A DNA stretch of 20,200 nucleotides from a virus, in IMG/VR virus record IMGVR_UViG_3300008113_006924, positions 1 through 20,200 of that record. The stretch is one strand, 5' to 3'. Below the pieces are notes generated by a model. The model was not told the DNA's origin. It worked only from the letters and a program-made list of their open reading frames with translations, and did not search any database. Within the stretch, counting starts at the first letter, position 1; the number at the start of each line of letters is the position of its first letter. Below are positions 1 through 15,024 of the stretch, in pieces. Both the position numbers and the translations under genes were made by a program.

Positions 1-55
1 TGCCCAAAGTCATGGCTGCAACCATGGCTAGTGCGATTTTCTTAAATGACTTCAT
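1..55 (-). CDS. 5' end of an exported protein (cut by window edge)
   Basis: Only the first 18 codons are inside the window. They read MKSFKKIALAMVAAMTLG: two to three lysines followed by a hydrophobic alanine-rich stretch, which is the n- and h-region of a Sec signal peptide. The ATG at 55 is preceded by AAGGAGAAC about 10 nt upstream, a good ribosome binding site. The rest of the protein lies beyond the left edge, so its function cannot be told. It is the most downstream gene seen on this strand. Confidence 0.72.
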   Translation of the reverse strand, partial: MKSFKKIALAMVAAMTLG

Positions 56-103: not shown

Positions 104-274
104 TTAGTGTAGTTCGTTTACTTTTACATGAAATGAGCACGGATCTCCGCCTTCATCCCATTCTTTCATTTCTTCGTCAGACATTGGAGGACCATCATGT
201 GTATCGCAAAATACATCTGAAATCCATCCCCTGTCATAACCATTCTTTAGCCATATCTCAAACTCTAAATCCAT
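104..274 (-). CDS. Small acidic protein of unknown function, 56 aa
   Basis: The ATG at 274 overlaps the last codons of thioredoxin by 10 nt, and the frame runs 56 codons to TAA. The protein starts MDLEFEIWLKNGYDRGW and is rich in Asp, Glu and Trp, with two cysteines (residues 23 and 46) and several aromatic residues. It has no signal peptide or membrane segment and looks like a compact cytosolic protein. It resembles small conserved proteins in actinobacterial phage genomes, but I cannot name a function. Its tight coupling to the thioredoxin gene suggests co-expression. A plausible gene given composition and overlap; a homologue search would settle it. Confidence 0.7.
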   Translation of the reverse strand: MDLEFEIWLKNGYDRGWISDVFCDTHDGPPMSDEEMKEWDEGGDPCSFHVKVNELH

Positions 275-567
275 TCAGATATTTCCTCAATGAACTTATG
301 TTTTGGCATAGCTCCTTTAGTTCTCTTTACCTCTTTACCGTCTTTAAAAACAATAACTGTAGGCAAAGAAATAACATTGTACTTCTCGGCACTTGATGGA
401 TTTTCATCCGCATCTATCTTTCCAATCCAGACATTGTGCTCTGATGCTACCTCATCAAGTATTGGAGAAAATCTTTTGCATGGACTACACCATTCAGCCC
501 AAAAATCTACAAGGACTACATGATGAGAACTAATAACTTCATCGAAATTGCTGTCAGTTACAATCAT
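265..567 (-). CDS. trxA: Thioredoxin
   Basis: A 100-residue single-domain thioredoxin, close to the usual 105-110. The active site is WCSPC (Cys27 and Cys30; the common form is WCGPC), preceded by the DFWAEW strand typical of the family; the cis-proline is Pro69 in SLPT, followed by VIVFKDG. It should reduce disulfides in the cytosol, and there is no export signal. Known phage thioredoxins serve as polymerase processivity factors or feed ribonucleotide reductase; neither partner is visible here. The ATG shares one base with the stop of the preceding gene (TAATG), with AAAGGAT upstream as ribosome binding site. The Gly-to-Ser change between the cysteines should shift redox potential modestly; this is inference. 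Confidence 0.95.
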   Translation of the reverse strand: MIVTDSNFDEVISSHHVVLVDFWAEWCSPCKRFSPILDEVASEHNVWIGKIDADENPSSAEKYNVISLPTVIVFKDGKEVKRTKGAMPKHKFIEEISEWI

Positions 568-773
568 TACTTATCCTTTAGAGTCTCTGCTGCTTCATTA
601 AAGCGAATCATAAAATTTTGGATTACCCAAAATGTTGTTTCACCAGCATTTTTAGCCATTGCCTCAGATGCTTCTGGTGTTCTATCTTCTTGTGCTAGAC
701 CATTGTACCATTTCTGGTACAGTTCCTGCCCAAGATCTTTAATTATTTCGTCCAAAACTGTAAGTTCAGCCAT
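567..773 (-). CDS. Hypothetical small protein, 68 aa
   Basis: A soluble, mostly helical 68-residue protein beginning MAELTVLDEIIKDLG, rich in Glu, Ala and Gln, with no cysteines and no membrane segment. The ATG at 773 sits in ATGGCTGA, overlapping the stop codon of the protease gene by 8 nt, which suggests translational coupling; no clear Shine-Dalgarno is present. An in-frame ATG at 806 would add 11 residues inside the protease tail but also lacks a ribosome binding site, so the later start is preferred. Its stop overlaps the thioredoxin start. Function not recognised. Confidence 0.72.
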   Translation of the reverse strand: MAELTVLDEIIKDLGQELYQKWYNGLAQEDRTPEASEAMAKNAGETTFWVIQNFMIRFNEAAETLKDK

Positions 774-1929
774 TAAGTTTTGCCATCCAAGCTGCTCTTG
801 CTGCATTCAACTTATCTTGTGCAGCTTTTAGTTCAGCAGCATATTGCTTTTCTGCTTCAGCAATTCCAGCTTCCACCTGCAGTTTTAATGCTGCTTTGGC
901 ATCGGCTGCTGCTTTGGCATCGGCTGCTGCTTTGGCATCGGCTGCTGCTTTGGCATCGGCTGCTGCTTTGGCATCGGCTGCTGCTTTATCTGTTGTGTTT
1001 GTAGTGTTACCACTCACTGCATTAGAAATAGTAATTAGCTTCTTAAATGTGCCTTGTCTTCCAGTTGTGTTTGCAGAGTTAGCCTTCATAGCATCTATCA
1101 ACTGACTACCAGATTGTCCAGATGTAGTCATCATTCTAAGATATGTTGCAGCAGCAACTTGAGTTGCAGGAGAAGTTCCAGCAATATTCTTGGAAATGTT
1201 TCCTGGGCCAACTGCTTGCATATTTCCTAATGCAAAGAAATCTAGTAGTACTGAATCATTATTGCTATAGGATGCAATTTCTCCAATTTGATCAACAGCA
1301 CCTACAGAAACTACATCCTGTATACATGAAGGCCAATCAATTCGTGAGTAATCACGAGCATTACCTACTGCAGAAAATACTGGCACTGACATTGAATTTA
1401 ACTGCTGTACTGCTGAAATTGTTCTTGGAAATGTTGGGCAATATTGTGTTCCAGATTTACCAAGAAGTCCGCTACTACCTTGTGAAAGAGAGACAGCTTT
1501 AATATTATATTTAGTTGCATTATCTCTTACCCAAAAAAGTGCTGCAGAAATTGTTGACTCTCCAGTTGGCTTTCTTAGTCCAGTAGACGTATTTGCAATT
1601 ATCTTGATGAACAAAATTTTAATATTAGGATTGGATTGAACTGCAGCAGTTGCCATAAATGTTCCATGATCAAATCCATTTTTAGAAATTAAATCCTTTG
1701 GCATTGATGCTGAACCTGGGCCCTCTTGGAAGTTTGTTCCATTTGGACACAAAGACCATTCAAGTAGGCATACCTCTCCAACAATTTTGCCTTGAAGAGA
1801 AGGAACTGATGTGTCAATTGCTGTATCTAGAATAGCTAGAACTGGTACGTCTGTGCCAGATGCCTGTGAAATTGCAACAGGTGATAGAAGTGATAAAGTA
1901 AGTACCGCCGTGATTAGTTTATTTTTCAT
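766..1929 (-). CDS. Secreted subtilisin-like serine protease (S8 family)
   Basis: 387 residues. Residues 1-24 form a Sec signal peptide (basic start, hydrophobic core, Ala-Ser-Gly near the cleavage site). The S8 catalytic triad appears complete: Asp35 in ILDTAID, His88 in FDHGT and Ser253 in AGTSPATQVAAA; Asn190 in SAVGN is the expected oxyanion residue. Residues 315-346 are five KAAADA repeats, followed by a charged Ala/Lys/Gln-rich helix to the end, resembling a stalk or coiled coil. There is no obvious propeptide. The product should be exported by the infected cell or carried on the virion, and could process surface proteins. A strong promoter lies immediately upstream and the mRNA appears leaderless. 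First gene of the unit that continues into thioredoxin. Confidence 0.92.
   Translation of the reverse strand: MKNKLITAVLTLSLLSPVAISQASGTDVPVLAILDTAIDTSVPSLQGKIVGEVCLLEWSLCPNGTNFQEGPGSASMPKDLISKNGFDHGTFMATAAVQSNPNIKILFIKIIANTSTGLRKPTGESTISAALFWVRDNATKYNIKAVSLSQGSSGLLGKSGTQYCPTFPRTISAVQQLNSMSVPVFSAVGNARDYSRIDWPSCIQDVVSVGAVDQIGEIASYSNNDSVLLDFFALGNMQAVGPGNISKNIAGTSPATQVAAATYLRMMTTSGQSGSQLIDAMKANSANTTGRQGTFKKLITISNAVSGNTTNTTDKAAADAKAAADAKAAADAKAAADAKAAADAKAALKLQVEAGIAEAEKQYAAELKAAQDKLNAARAAWMAKLNG
890..987 (-). repeat. 18-bp tandem repeat, about 5 copies, coding for KAAADA
   Basis: On the plus strand the unit gctttggcatcggctgct recurs about 5.4 times with no visible mismatch. It encodes alternating Lys-Ala-Ala-Ala-Asp-Ala blocks in the protease tail. 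Because the unit is a multiple of three, copy-number change by strand slippage would lengthen or shorten the stalk without breaking the frame. Confidence 0.95.
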
Positions 1930-2476: not shown

Positions 2477-2505
2477 ATTATACCTTAAACTTGGATATAT
2501 GTATA
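2477..2505 (-). promoter_or_regulatory. Promoter of the membrane zinc-protein gene (leaderless)
   Basis: A -35-like TATACA (2505-2500, 4/6 match to consensus), a 17-bp spacer and a perfect TATAAT (2482-2477). Exactly 6 nt separate the -10 box from the ATG at 2470. The promoter lies inside the 3' end of the Ntn hydrolase gene. Confidence 0.7.
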
Positions 2506-3042
2506 GGGTGGTGCTACGCTCATATTAAATGCTGTTGCTGCTTCTAGTGCAAGTTTAAGTCTAAGCTTAGGGTTCTTTTGATTTTTAGTTGCATGTAATG
2601 CCCCTAATGCTATCTGCCCGCCACTTCCTTCTGCCATATAATTAACTATATTTTCTCCAACATGGAAGTCCTCATCTATAGTAAAGATTCTTCCTTCTAC
2701 TCCTACTATAAATATTCCACCAGTATCTTCTTCTGATGAAGATCCAATACTTCCGTACCCATGATCCTTGAAAGCAGCCTTAACTGAGTCAACAAACTTA
2801 GTCCTCATAAATTTATCTAGCCCAGAGTTTGTTTTTGTTGGAGTGTATTTTGGTGGGGTCCACATATATTGTAAAATTTGGCCCATTCTAAATGAATCTG
2901 TAAACGCTATGCCGTATTGACCTACCTTAAAGCACTTAGGTTCTTTTCTTGAGAGTATCCATCCAGTTTTATCATCTGAAGCCGCATGGTCGGAACCCAT
3001 ATAAACGGTCCCACCTTGGGCAATAGCAACTATACATGTCAT
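2485..3042 (-). CDS. Proteasome beta/HslV-like Ntn hydrolase
   Basis: 185 residues, in the size range of HslV and small proteasome beta-type subunits. The start, MTCIVAIAQGGTVYMGSD, has the family layout: after Met removal Thr2 would be the N-terminal nucleophile, followed by a hydrophobic strand, a Gly turn and an Asp at the position of the conserved catalytic Asp17. Further strands (GGIFIVGVEGRIFTIDED and a Gly-rich AEGSGGQIALGAL segment) also fit the fold. No HslU-like ATPase is present, so it could act alone, join host proteasome components or have another amidohydrolase activity; these are inferences. The mRNA appears leaderless. The first codons are decisive because the nucleophile must follow the initiator Met, which supports this start. 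Confidence 0.75.
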   Translation of the reverse strand: MTCIVAIAQGGTVYMGSDHAASDDKTGWILSRKEPKCFKVGQYGIAFTDSFRMGQILQYMWTPPKYTPTKTNSGLDKFMRTKFVDSVKAAFKDHGYGSIGSSSEEDTGGIFIVGVEGRIFTIDEDFHVGENIVNYMAEGSGGQIALGALHATKNQKNPKLRLKLALEAATAFNMSVAPPYTYIQV

Positions 3043-6244: not shown

Positions 6245-6421
6245 AGGTATGGTTAGCAGCCATATTGCAGTAGCAATTACTGTGGCAACACCAACGACTT
6301 GCTGGGCTGATCCTGTTAGGGTAAGCCATGCAATAAAAAATCCAAGCAGGGTAAATACCTGGGCAATACTCTCTTTAATTACTTCCCAAATATAGTTAAC
6401 TATAGCTTTGATTATTTTCAT
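6224..6421 (-). CDS. Small membrane protein, 65 aa (holin-like)
   Basis: 65 residues with two hydrophobic segments (about 20-37 and 41-59) and a charged tail RKDEQ. The short hairpin topology matches many small phage holins; with the 136-residue protein downstream, the cassette may have two membrane proteins as in many actinophage lysis modules. AAGGAGG lies 6 nt before the ATG, the strongest ribosome binding site in this region, and the ATG overlaps the preceding stop (TAATG). Holin function is inferred from size, topology and place only. Confidence 0.75.
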   Translation of the reverse strand: MKIIKAIVNYIWEVIKESIAQVFTLLGFFIAWLTLTGSAQQVVGVATVIATAIWLLTIPLRKDEQ

Positions 6422-8370
6422 TATATCCTCCTTGTCATGGCCGCTGCCACAATATTTGATGCGATAATTACTGGTACAACAACCTCTTGAGCCTTCTCTC
6501 TTTGGTCATCAGTCATATCTTTGCCCCATTCTGATGGATTTAACACCTTACTAAAATCTATGTCTGTAAATGCTCCTATTGGATCCGCCAAAAATGCTTC
6601 TGTTTGCACCTCTGTTGTTGCGTCCGCTAAAGTATATGGCATGCTTGCATCTCCTGCAGACTCTGCTCTAGACTCAAACTCAACAAATGCCTGTGCAAGC
6701 TCTGGGTTGCTTTTCATAGCCTCTGCAACTTGAGCAACATCTGAAGCCTTAATTCCTAGAGTTTCTGCAACTTCGGCCTTTGCCTCTTGAGTTAAAGCCT
6801 GTAGAGTTTGACTAACTGCAGATATTTGTTCTGGAGATAATACAACTAATTTATTGTCTTTGCTTGTAAGATTTGCAATAACATTAGAAAGATCTTCTTC
6901 GGTTCCGCTTCCCTTTTCAGGAACCAAGGCTGCTAGAACTTCATCTTTAATTTCAACATTATCTGTAGGCTCAGGTGTGGGCTCGTCTGTAGGCTCAGGT
7001 GTGGGCTCGTCTGTAGGCTCAGGTGTGGGCTCGTCTGTAGGCTCAGGTGTGGGCTCTGGACTTGGTTCTGGTGTAGGCTGATTTGCTGCAGCGTTGGCTG
7101 CTGCTTGTGCAATAGCAGCATTTAATTCTCTTTCAGATTGTTCAAAATAATAAGTCCATGCATCTTGAATAGCAGCATTCAAATCAATTATAGATTGATC
7201 ATATGTGTTGATTCTATTATTCTTTAATTCCAAGGAAGATGTTAGGTTTTGTTGTGCGTATGTTAGGTTTTGGCTTGCTGTTGTGAGAATTGATGTTAGA
7301 TTTTGTAAGGTTTCTAATTCTTGATTATAAACACTTAGTTTATCATTGTATACTTCTAACTTATTGTTATAATTTGTTTGAGCTGTAGCCCTTGCTGCAA
7401 GTGCTTCTTCATATGCATCTAACTGTGCTTGAGTTGGTCCTGATCCAGAAGAAAATGTATTTAGATTACAACTAAAGTTTTGTCCCCATACTCTTGGATT
7501 TCCAGCATAGTCACAACCTGCTCCAGTCCATCCTCCAGGAATAGCCCATCCAAGATGGTAGGATCCTGGGCCTCCTCCGTTGTACCACCATATCTCTACA
7601 CCTAAAGTCTTATCTTCACTGACATCGTATACTGGAGAATAGTCGCTCCATGTAGCGCCTTGCTCTACCCAGTTATCAACAGCAAGTTGTCCATCAACAT
7701 ACATTCTAAAACCATCATCTGTATATCCCGCAAAGTAGGTTTGCGTAAACCACGAAGGGACTGTTATCTGTCCAGTAAATTTAACTATAATATTTTCATA
7801 TCTACCACAGACTGGAAGTTGCATAGAACTTGAGTTCCATGTTCCAGTACATATTACAGATCCTGGAATTGCTACGTTTCCATTTCTTAATAAGTTATAA
7901 ACTGTATAGGCAAGACCAGGGCCACCAGAGCTTTGAATATTTGATTGAGTTATTTGGACATTAATATTAGCTATGCTAAGTGCATCTTGAGCATCGTTTC
8001 TTTCTTCAAGGGAATTATCTTTATGCTCAAGAGCCAGTGCTACCGTGGCTGTTTGGCCATCTACATTTGACTGAGCAAGGTTTTTAGACTCCAGCGCTGT
8101 AGCCTCTGCATCTACTGCATCATCGTAGGCATCATATGCATCGTCTTTAAGCTCCATAGCATTTGTCGCATATGTAAATTTATTTTCTGCTATGTCTATA
8201 AGATCTATAAAATCATCTTGATAAACTAAATTAGATACTTTATTATTAAGCTCTTCTATTTCTTGAGCGGCGAGGCTAAGTGGATCATCTCCATGGGCAG
8301 GAGTAAGAAATACCCATCCAAACATTAAAATGGTGGCTAATGATAATCTCCATGCTTTAGTCCTAGTCAA
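6421..8370 (-). CDS. Secreted PA14-domain protein with coiled coils and Pro-rich repeat
   Basis: 649 residues. Signal peptide at 1-27 (ending PAHG). Then a helical Ala/Asp/Glu-rich region (about 32-145), a PA14-like beta domain (about 151-305, with FAGYTDDGFRMYVDG, several Trp and four Cys), a second coiled coil (315-425), a Pro-Thr-Glu repeat linker (431-470), a Gln/Glu-rich region and a hydrophobic C-terminal helix (630-645) ending TRRI. PA14 domains bind carbohydrate, so this may be a surface or virion adhesin, or a tail-associated receptor-binding protein. It starts at TTG (8370) with AGGAG 7 nt upstream. It is encoded just before the lysis genes. The C-terminal helix followed by two Arg would fit membrane anchoring. 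Confidence 0.85.
   Translation of the reverse strand: MTRTKAWRLSLATILMFGWVFLTPAHGDDPLSLAAQEIEELNNKVSNLVYQDDFIDLIDIAENKFTYATNAMELKDDAYDAYDDAVDAEATALESKNLAQSNVDGQTATVALALEHKDNSLEERNDAQDALSIANINVQITQSNIQSSGGPGLAYTVYNLLRNGNVAIPGSVICTGTWNSSSMQLPVCGRYENIIVKFTGQITVPSWFTQTYFAGYTDDGFRMYVDGQLAVDNWVEQGATWSDYSPVYDVSEDKTLGVEIWWYNGGGPGSYHLGWAIPGGWTGAGCDYAGNPRVWGQNFSCNLNTFSSGSGPTQAQLDAYEEALAARATAQTNYNNKLEVYNDKLSVYNQELETLQNLTSILTTASQNLTYAQQNLTSSLELKNNRINTYDQSIIDLNAAIQDAWTYYFEQSERELNAAIAQAAANAAANQPTPEPSPEPTPEPTDEPTPEPTDEPTPEPTDEPTPEPTDNVEIKDEVLAALVPEKGSGTEEDLSNVIANLTSKDNKLVVLSPEQISAVSQTLQALTQEAKAEVAETLGIKASDVAQVAEAMKSNPELAQAFVEFESRAESAGDASMPYTLADATTEVQTEAFLADPIGAFTDIDFSKVLNPSEWGKDMTDDQREKAQEVVVPVIIASNIVAAAMTRRI
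6962..7057 (-). repeat. 24-bp tandem repeat, 4 copies, coding for PTPEPTDE
   Basis: Plus-strand unit tctgtaggctcaggtgtggg followed by ctcg, four copies at 6962, 6986, 7010 and 7034; only the last base of the fourth copy differs. It encodes a rigid, acidic Pro-Thr-Glu linker in the PA14 protein. The near-identity suggests recent expansion, and copy changes would stay in frame. Confidence 0.93.
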
Positions 8371-12693: not shown

Positions 12694-14495
12694 ATTATCT
12701 CCATGCTTTCTATAGATCTAGCTAAACTTTCAGGCATTCTCGGCGCACGAATCATATTCTGAACATACTCTATTTCGCCATCGTTTCCGTTTGCAAAATC
12801 GTTATCATAGCTCATTGATTCATAGTCGTGTATTTTTATTTCTTCGTCTCTTTTTATTCTGCTTCTGCTTATAGAGTTGTATACAGCTCCACATACAGCA
12901 TCGGCTAAGTCTTTAGAGCCTTTTCTTGGGTGGTCAACCTTGTCCCTCATAATTCTTAGCTGAAGCAATTCATCAATTAATAATGGTATATGCGGTCCAG
13001 AGAGCCTTTCTTCTAGCACAACCATGGCCATATCGTCGTAGTGCTTTTTTGCCACCGAAAGAATTTCTGTATTAATACCATATGTTTTTAACTGCTGCAT
13101 CATATCATGAGAGTTCCATCGGTCAAACGTGCAGACTTTTATGTTAAATCCTCTAGTCTTTAAAGAAAGTATATAGTCTTTTACCTCTGTAAAATCTACG
13201 GACTTATCTGGCGTGGGGGTCCAAAATCTAACAGCATCTATTTCTACAATAGGTGCTGGCTGATTATATGTATCTGTTACTTTTATATCAACCCATTTAT
13301 TTACGTGGCCCATGGCAACCGCACAATGGTCATGCTTTTGAGCTAAGTCTACATGTATAAAATAATCTTTTCCTTCTTCTGGCTTAAACCACTCCTCTAG
13401 TCTTCCAAAAGAGTCTACTGCTAGGTGAGCTTTATTAAACGCCTTTTCTATCTTGTCTCTTGATTTAAAAAATGCATCAACTGCGTCAGTTGGCATACAT
13501 GCAAATCTTCCTAGTGCATCTTGTGGATTTTTGTGAAAAGCGACAGTAAAATCTGTTATCTTTTTTGTAGGGTTTACTTCCCAAGTAGGCCTTTTTAAAG
13601 CAAACACTCTTGGGTAAACATAAGAAATAATATGGTCTTCTTCCCAAGATACTTCAAACTCGTTCCCGACTGTACCTGCTGGAAGATCTTGGTCTAGCTT
13701 TAGTATCTCTGTTCTAATAATTGTTTCTTTTTCTGCAATAACTGATTGATAAAACTTTTGTATTGGATCGTTTTTAAATCTTGGGAATGAAAGCAGGATA
13801 ACCTTTCCGAAGTCTGGGAAACGTGAGTCTACTGAAGCACGATACATATCATATATAGCGTCTGCTGTTTTAGCTTGGTCGTGACCACTTGTGTTCTCTG
13901 TTGCAAATCCAGAAATTTCATCTAGTATCACAACTAAAACGTTATAGCCTTCCCAGGCTTCTCTTTCTGAGTGTCCAGAATGAACTGTTATTGATTTATC
14001 AAATTTTATTTCAGAAGCTTTGTCTGTATATTTTCCAGCAAACCAAGGCGAAACCTCGATACGCATTTTAAATCCTTTAAAGAAAACATTGTTGGCTTGT
14101 TGGGCATTAATAGCAATATTTAGTATATCTATTGCATCTCTTGGAGGCTTTCCATAATATGCTGCTGGGTCTTTTAAGCATAGTAAGAGGTAAACTATAT
14201 AGGCTACTGCTATTGTTGAAGAATAATCTTTTCCAGACCCTTTGCCGAGCTGTGCAATTACCTCTACGCAAGTTTGTTTAAACATTTTTTTGCCAACATC
14301 TTCGCCATACAGCTTAATCAATGTAGATTCTTTATATATCTGAGAGCTTCTTGCTATTAAAGTATATTGATTTTCTGAAAGTGGTGGTAAACCAAGGTAG
14401 TCTGGGCTTGTAACAAATGTTTGAAGATCTACTGGACGCTCTTCAAATTCTTCTCCGTCTAGTATTTCTATAAAATCTGAAAAATCAAATGGCAT
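12690..14495 (-). CDS. terL: Phage terminase large subunit
   Basis: 601 residues from ATG 14495 (an in-frame TTG at 14507 would add four). ATPase half: a Walker A-like AQLGKGSGKDY around 81-91 and Walker B VVILDE around 188-193. Nuclease half with RNase H-like acidic residues: FIHVDLA (about Asp383), CTFDRWNS (about Asp458) and SKDLADAV (about Asp529/Asp532). This motor drives DNA into the prohead and cuts the concatemer. The start overlaps the stop of the small-subunit gene by 11 nt. No intein or frameshift is seen. Together with TerS it marks the packaging module. Confidence 0.96.
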   Translation of the reverse strand: MPFDFSDFIEILDGEEFEERPVDLQTFVTSPDYLGLPPLSENQYTLIARSSQIYKESTLIKLYGEDVGKKMFKQTCVEVIAQLGKGSGKDYSSTIAVAYIVYLLLCLKDPAAYYGKPPRDAIDILNIAINAQQANNVFFKGFKMRIEVSPWFAGKYTDKASEIKFDKSITVHSGHSEREAWEGYNVLVVILDEISGFATENTSGHDQAKTADAIYDMYRASVDSRFPDFGKVILLSFPRFKNDPIQKFYQSVIAEKETIIRTEILKLDQDLPAGTVGNEFEVSWEEDHIISYVYPRVFALKRPTWEVNPTKKITDFTVAFHKNPQDALGRFACMPTDAVDAFFKSRDKIEKAFNKAHLAVDSFGRLEEWFKPEEGKDYFIHVDLAQKHDHCAVAMGHVNKWVDIKVTDTYNQPAPIVEIDAVRFWTPTPDKSVDFTEVKDYILSLKTRGFNIKVCTFDRWNSHDMMQQLKTYGINTEILSVAKKHYDDMAMVVLEERLSGPHIPLLIDELLQLRIMRDKVDHPRKGSKDLADAVCGAVYNSISRSRIKRDEEIKIHDYESMSYDNDFANGNDGEIEYVQNMIRAPRMPESLARSIESMEII

Positions 14496-15024
14496 CTGAC
14501 TCTTCAATTATGTTAATAGACTGGACCACTCCAGTTATTTGAGAAAGTCTTTTTGCTACTTCTATTTTACAGTGGTTGCAGCTTGAAGTAACTTCTTTGA
14601 GTATGCCAACAAGCATCTCCTGCTTTCTTTCTGTTTCCAGTATCTGAGATGCCATTTCATTATTTTCAAGAACCCCGATTGACTGAAGCATAGCAATTCT
14701 TTTTGTCTCTATGTCTGCAATAAGCTTAAGGGTTCCAGACTTAACGTTTAGTTGCCCTTGTGTATCTGCATCCTCAACCGTTTTCCATGCTTCTTTGATT
14801 AACATGTCATAATGCTGATCTGCTCCAAGCAAAGCTTCTTTGGCCCTGTCCCTGACATTTGTATCATTATGGACAATAGACTTCCACTCATCGATATGCT
14901 CAAGAACTTCTTTACGGGTAAGCCCAGTGATAGATGATATTTGAGTAGCAGAATTACCTTTTAATAGCTCAGAAACTACTCTATTCATTTTGTCGAATTG
15001 TACTGCTGGCTCTATTTCGCTCAT
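14485..15024 (-). CDS. terS: Probable terminase small subunit
   Basis: 179 residues, mainly helical. Residues 22-44 (GNSATQISSITGLTRKEVLEHI) form a helix-turn-helix of the type used by TerS to bind the packaging site; the middle is a long helical segment fitting the oligomerisation core, and two cysteines (SSCNHCK) occur near the end. It is directly upstream of and overlaps TerL, the strongest support. The ATG lies 6 nt after a TATAAT box without Shine-Dalgarno, so packaging genes appear to begin a new leaderless transcript. Confidence 0.82.
   Translation of the reverse strand: MSEIEPAVQFDKMNRVVSELLKGNSATQISSITGLTRKEVLEHIDEWKSIVHNDTNVRDRAKEALLGADQHYDMLIKEAWKTVEDADTQGQLNVKSGTLKLIADIETKRIAMLQSIGVLENNEMASQILETERKQEMLVGILKEVTSSCNHCKIEVAKRLSQITGVVQSINIIEESDAI

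Follow-up and report, generated by a model that had tools for sequence, protein, structure and literature searches.

The window analyzed here, 20,200 nucleotides of the IMG/VR virus record IMGVR_UViG_3300008113_006924, carries on its minus strand an open reading frame (positions 766–1929, stop codon included) that starts with ATG and encodes a secreted S8 subtilase of 387 residues. Its N-terminus, MKNKLITAVLTLSLLSPVAISQASG, was judged by eye to be a Sec signal peptide; the leader, residues 1–25 (1855–1929, minus strand), reads MKNKLITAVLTLSLLSPVAISQA and is followed by SG. From the sequence, the catalytic domain (residues 28–300; 1030–1848, minus strand) begins within about 10 residues of the signal peptide. 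It contains Asp35 (1825–1827), His88 (1666–1668), the oxyanion-hole Asn190 (1360–1362), and Ser253 (1171–1173), all on the minus strand and in the order seen in S8 enzymes, and not one of these four residues is substituted among 118 distinct viral ORFs. Four cysteines (54, 61, 164, and 202) are likewise invariant across 118 distinct protease ORFs. A genome search gave a Peptidase_S8 match of 52.5 bits (E 3e-16), the core without its C-terminal tail matched PF00082 with 52.8 bits (E 5e-14, cut-off 21.8), and the same profile exceeded its cut-off in all 18 family members tested (best E 4.8e-19). Thus, the complete S8 triad noted in the initial annotation is borne out by the intact residues, the profile match, and a subtilisin fold (see below), and the Sec-type leader supports the proposal that the product is secreted. 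At the active serine some family members have GSS in place of GTS, and most show Q at a position where subtilisins usually carry P; the specificity of the protease may therefore be narrow.

At full length the protease had no matches in Pfam or PHROG. Its low-complexity Ala/Lys/Asp tail apparently masks the S8 domain, as trimming the tail restored the match, and phage S8 genes of this kind are probably under-annotated because such alanine-rich tails hide the domain in standard full-length profile scans. Once the tail was removed, the protease also matched PHROG 3677 ("protease"), another phage-borne S8 domain, as did 14 of 18 family members at E ≤ 0.01. The PHROG 3677 profile, however, spans 1125 positions and is matched at an internal domain, whereas the protease described here is a short, stand-alone exported enzyme.

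The tail consists of a (KAAADA)5 repeat spacer (889–987, minus strand), a perfect tandem array of 5.5 copies of an 18-bp unit, and a conserved helical, coiled-coil-like module at the C-terminus (residues 338–387; 769–918, minus strand) that is found in phage members only. The 50-residue module ends in ...DKLAAxKAxWxAKLNG and is preceded by spacers with varying repeat units: there are six copies in a 98% identical sister and different units in other relatives. The module is present on 42 of 77 non-redundant phage proteases, and the members that bear it cluster as few events on a quick tree, as a single gain and several losses could produce. By inspection, the spacing of its hydrophobic positions is suggestive of a coiled coil, and an AlphaFold model renders residues 315–386 as one long helix. 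We did not find the module elsewhere in 15 phage records or in 151 genomes of the host family (E cut-offs of 1e-4 and 0.01; the profile was short and of low complexity), and the idea that other proteins of phage or host share it found no support in these searches. The dN/dS of the tail, 0.09–0.59, is looser than that of the core (0.07–0.20). The repeat stalk to which the initial annotation drew attention is thus real, but it is specific to the lineage of the window; because a stalk is missing from roughly half of the family and from every host homologue, it is not the defining feature.

Most such proteases need a helper segment, the propeptide, to fold. The catalytic Asp of the phage protease lies only 32–43 residues from the start methionine (118 distinct ORFs), which leaves no room for an I9 propeptide, and no I9 profile match was found between the signal peptide and the catalytic domain. 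The calcium-A loop (residues 75–83 of subtilisin BPN') is also absent from the family. In every one of 118 members, 20 residues separate the His from the strand that follows it, and the family profile aligns without gaps to Δ75–83 BPN' across the missing loop, whereas full-length BPN' chains have nine extra residues over this stretch. An AlphaFold model built on an alignment of only 26 rows had a mean pLDDT of 81.6, with most core blocks at 80–97. Its best solved Foldseek matches were variants of subtilisin BPN', including the calcium-independent 1gnv and 1suc, with a target-normalized TM of about 0.78. Structural prediction, which had been proposed as a check on a propeptide and a stalk, returned a helical tail.

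The closest parallel among known enzymes is the set of Δ75–83 variants of BPN' (1gnv, 1suc, and Sbt70; MEROPS S8A), which resemble the phage protease in fold, triad, oxyanion Asn, and missing calcium-A loop. Those variants were engineered, whereas the phage protease is natural and about 22% identical. It differs from BPN' further in lacking the 77-residue propeptide and in having the four invariant cysteines, the C-terminal helix, and a GT/SS...Q motif at the serine. Classical extracellular (pro)subtilisins, in contrast, have both an I9-type propeptide and a high-affinity calcium-A loop. In subtilisin, deletion of residues 75–83 makes an interrupted helix continuous and speeds refolding greatly, and the engineered Sbt-70 has no need of its prodomain to fold (PMC4865297). 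As read from its sequence, then, the phage protease is a natural enzyme that pairs a missing propeptide with the absence of the very loop that makes a propeptide necessary, and by analogy with the engineered variants we infer that it folds alone.

Foldseek also found S8 domains in baseplate and tail-fibre proteins of Synechococcus phages, and the protease might by that likeness be a component of the virion or a virion-maturation protease. The cyanophage domains are embedded in larger virion proteins, however, whereas the protease stands alone with its own leader among non-structural genes, and a related genome (G005) has its large, probably structural ORFs in a different region, at 1–55 kb. 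A place in the virion is consequently very improbable, and the maturation of virion proteins, suggested in the initial annotation, is unlikely for a protein that is Sec-exported.

Transcription of the gene appears to start at a promoter on the minus strand (1936–1963), TTGACA (1963–1958) and TATACT (1941–1936) separated by 16 nucleotides, with the ATG 6 nucleotides further on, so that the message would be leaderless. All but one of 88 distinct upstream regions from homologous genes reach a score of at least 10 out of 12, the gap to the ATG being 6–7 nucleotides in nearly every case, and the hexamers are nearly invariant across relatives while the spacer sequence varies. The near-consensus leaderless promoter assigned to the gene at the outset is in this way confirmed. 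The strong expression deduced from it is plausible, given the conservation of the promoter, and the same layout occurs on other genes of these phages: an HslV-like gene and a gene at 14485–15024 share it, which rules out a protease-specific element. Conservation at synonymous third positions reaches 87% over the first 25 protease codons, compared with 51–67% elsewhere, which suggests that the leaderless message is constrained at the nucleotide level near its 5' end.

Immediately downstream lies an ORF for 68 residues (567–773, minus strand), the start codon of which overlaps the stop codon of the protease gene: the protease ends in ...AAT GGC TGA, and the small ORF starts within the same bases as ATG GCT GA. 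This overlap may explain why most protease copies end in NG. The 68-residue product is modeled as two helices (pLDDT 92); no significant relative was found by profile search, and there was no match for its fold in the PDB. An identity as Imm71 was rejected as noise (E 0.035–0.047 in 2 of 32 members, mixed with unrelated families). The junction between the protease and the small ORF is never interrupted, whereas the next junction, between the small ORF and a conserved thioredoxin-like gene (265–567, minus strand), is broken by 0.45–3 kb in 14 of 61 distinct loci. The overlap alone could account for the uninterrupted junction. A bolder reading, which we regard as distinctly unlikely, is that the two ORFs form a new kind of two-gene unit, in which a propeptide-less, self-folding exported subtilisin is co-translated with a cytosolic partner that holds it unfolded or inhibited until export and so performs in trans the guarding job of the propeptide.

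Relatives of the protease were recovered from IMG/VR viral contigs, 41 by a single-sequence scan and 277 by a profile scan; a tblastn search of 50,697 isolate phage records found none. Two scans for neighboring genes, each restricted to the best 80 loci, so that more distant phages could be without the protease, gave concordant results. The protease was present in 80 of the 80 loci retrieved with the 68-residue ORF and in 79 of the 80 retrieved with the upstream HslV-like gene, the exception ending about 270 bases past that gene. Conversely, the small ORF adjoins the protease in 120 of 121 protease loci, the exception having 95 bases left. The protease thus belongs, on the evidence of synteny, to the core genes of this group of freshwater actinophages and has a fixed locus in them; its presence there wherever syntenic neighbors had enough DNA speaks against accessory cargo. 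The absence of a propeptide and of the calcium-A loop, the overlapping ORF, and this core status had all escaped the initial annotation.

That the gene is phage-encoded, as initially annotated, and not a piece of host chromosome is upheld by the source, a virus record that carries genes for TerL, a UvsX-like recombinase, a CHAP endolysin, and WhiB. The TerL is about 63% identical to that of Streptomyces phages such as Gilson, which are classed in the Stanwilliamsviridae. Relatives of the window reach 116 kb, and the gene order of G005 matches over about 30 kb. In G005 (L268, L270–L272) at least eight ORFs match a 2OG-Fe(II) oxygenase of the window. The WhiB gene, the kinship of TerL to actinophages, a G+C content of 37%, and the closest cellular homologues, which are in Nanopelagicaceae, together indicate that the host is probably a member of the Nanopelagicales.

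Those homologues, the nearest cellular relatives of the phage protease, are clear family members (bits >120) in 7 of 151 Nanopelagicaceae genomes (about 5%). Of these, one is found around position 980,000 of its contig, and a second has ordinary chromosomal genes as neighbors (identified from sequence only). All eight host sequences that we inspected by reading lack a tail and a propeptide and keep the four cysteines, and the two closest form long branches beside the phage group on a quick tree. The tail-less subtilases of Nanopelagicaceae (L158 and L160, for example) have in common with the phage protease a short leader, the absence of a propeptide, the four cysteines, and the sequence EVC...CPNG. 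They differ in having no tail and in that the 68-residue ORF was not detected in the host genomes (a search run without a positive control); identity is about 30% in the one pair measured (L043/L160). Such tail-less homologues would fit an exoenzyme acquired from the host that supplies amino acids or clears debris during infection. A universal fixed locus and a conserved overlapping ORF, however, accord better with a core infection function than with an optional metabolic gene, and we hold a nutritional or degradative role to be more doubtful still than the two-gene unit considered above.

Several neighboring genes are also conserved. Upstream is the HslV-like Ntn-hydrolase gene (2485–3042, minus strand), which has its own leaderless promoter, is >90% identical across the best 80 loci, and is a second conserved protease-like gene. 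Downstream, the window contains the 5' end (1–55, minus strand; MKSFKKIALAMVAAMTLG...) of a gene for an exported Ig-like protein that is complete in relatives (for example, L004:9884–11011) and has an Ala/Lys helical C-terminus ending in KKWNAKNPKAKV. A similar protein occurs in one host genome (L253). A further conserved ORF, at L004:11080–11877 and in relatives (MRFHWMERGGDTSIDHL...), may encode a luciferase-like flavin monooxygenase. Finally, a 649-residue exported protein at 6421–8370, with a PA14 match, PTEP repeats, and a hydrophobic C-terminus, is apparently a second surface protein of the phage.

The exported neighbors give rise to the main rival interpretation, in which the targets are exported proteins of the phage itself that coat the infected cell, either the downstream Ig-like coiled-coil protein or the PA14-like secreted one, and the protease serves to mature or trim them. 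The Ig-like gene lies about 0.5–1 kb downstream of the protease in most of 61 distinct loci (2 of the 61 have no match), and both proteins end in Ala/Lys-rich helices. Yet one locus (L020) carries a different exported protein at the Ig-like position, and the shared position may be mere general synteny. We consider this interpretation unlikely, if less so than the other alternatives.

We favor instead, with a probability of about 0.6, the view that the gene encodes an active, self-folding subtilisin that is exported by the infected actinobacterial cell and cleaves surface proteins during infection. The infected cell, probably one of the Nanopelagicales, would transcribe the gene from the host-type leaderless promoter and produce the overlapping 68-residue protein from the same message. 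The protease would be exported through Sec, which argues for action outside the membrane, and there would fold by itself in the manner of Δ75–83 subtilisin, whose missing loop it shares, with the four invariant cysteines perhaps serving as stabilizer in place of calcium. In the roughly half of lineages that have it, the C-terminal helix may tether the protease to the cell envelope or cause it to oligomerize. Surface proteins of the infected cell would then be cleaved, either loosening the envelope for lysis and release or stripping receptors against superinfection. The presence of the gene in every locus examined argues for a regular role in infection. The neighborhood, with its exported Ig-like protein, WhiB, thioredoxin, and more distant lysis genes, is compatible with both a lysis aid and receptor stripping; the distance to the lysis genes varies among relatives. 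Cleavage of surface proteins seems to us the best general reading of the function of the protease.

Our search of the literature for phage subtilisins turned up nothing relevant, and proteases, peptidases, and subtilisins are absent from the main text of two freshwater actinophage papers. The exported subtilases borne by these phages form a genuine, conserved subfamily, of which the literature searched holds no earlier description. Few freshwater bacteria are as abundant as the Nanopelagicales (acI), and to our knowledge little has been learned of how phages alter their cell surface. That a large group of phages probably infecting them shares an exported protease as a core gene points to a surface-remodeling step in infection. 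Moreover, as a natural counterpart of the Δ75–83 subtilisins of folding studies, the enzyme could reveal a solution to folding that is free of both prodomain and calcium.
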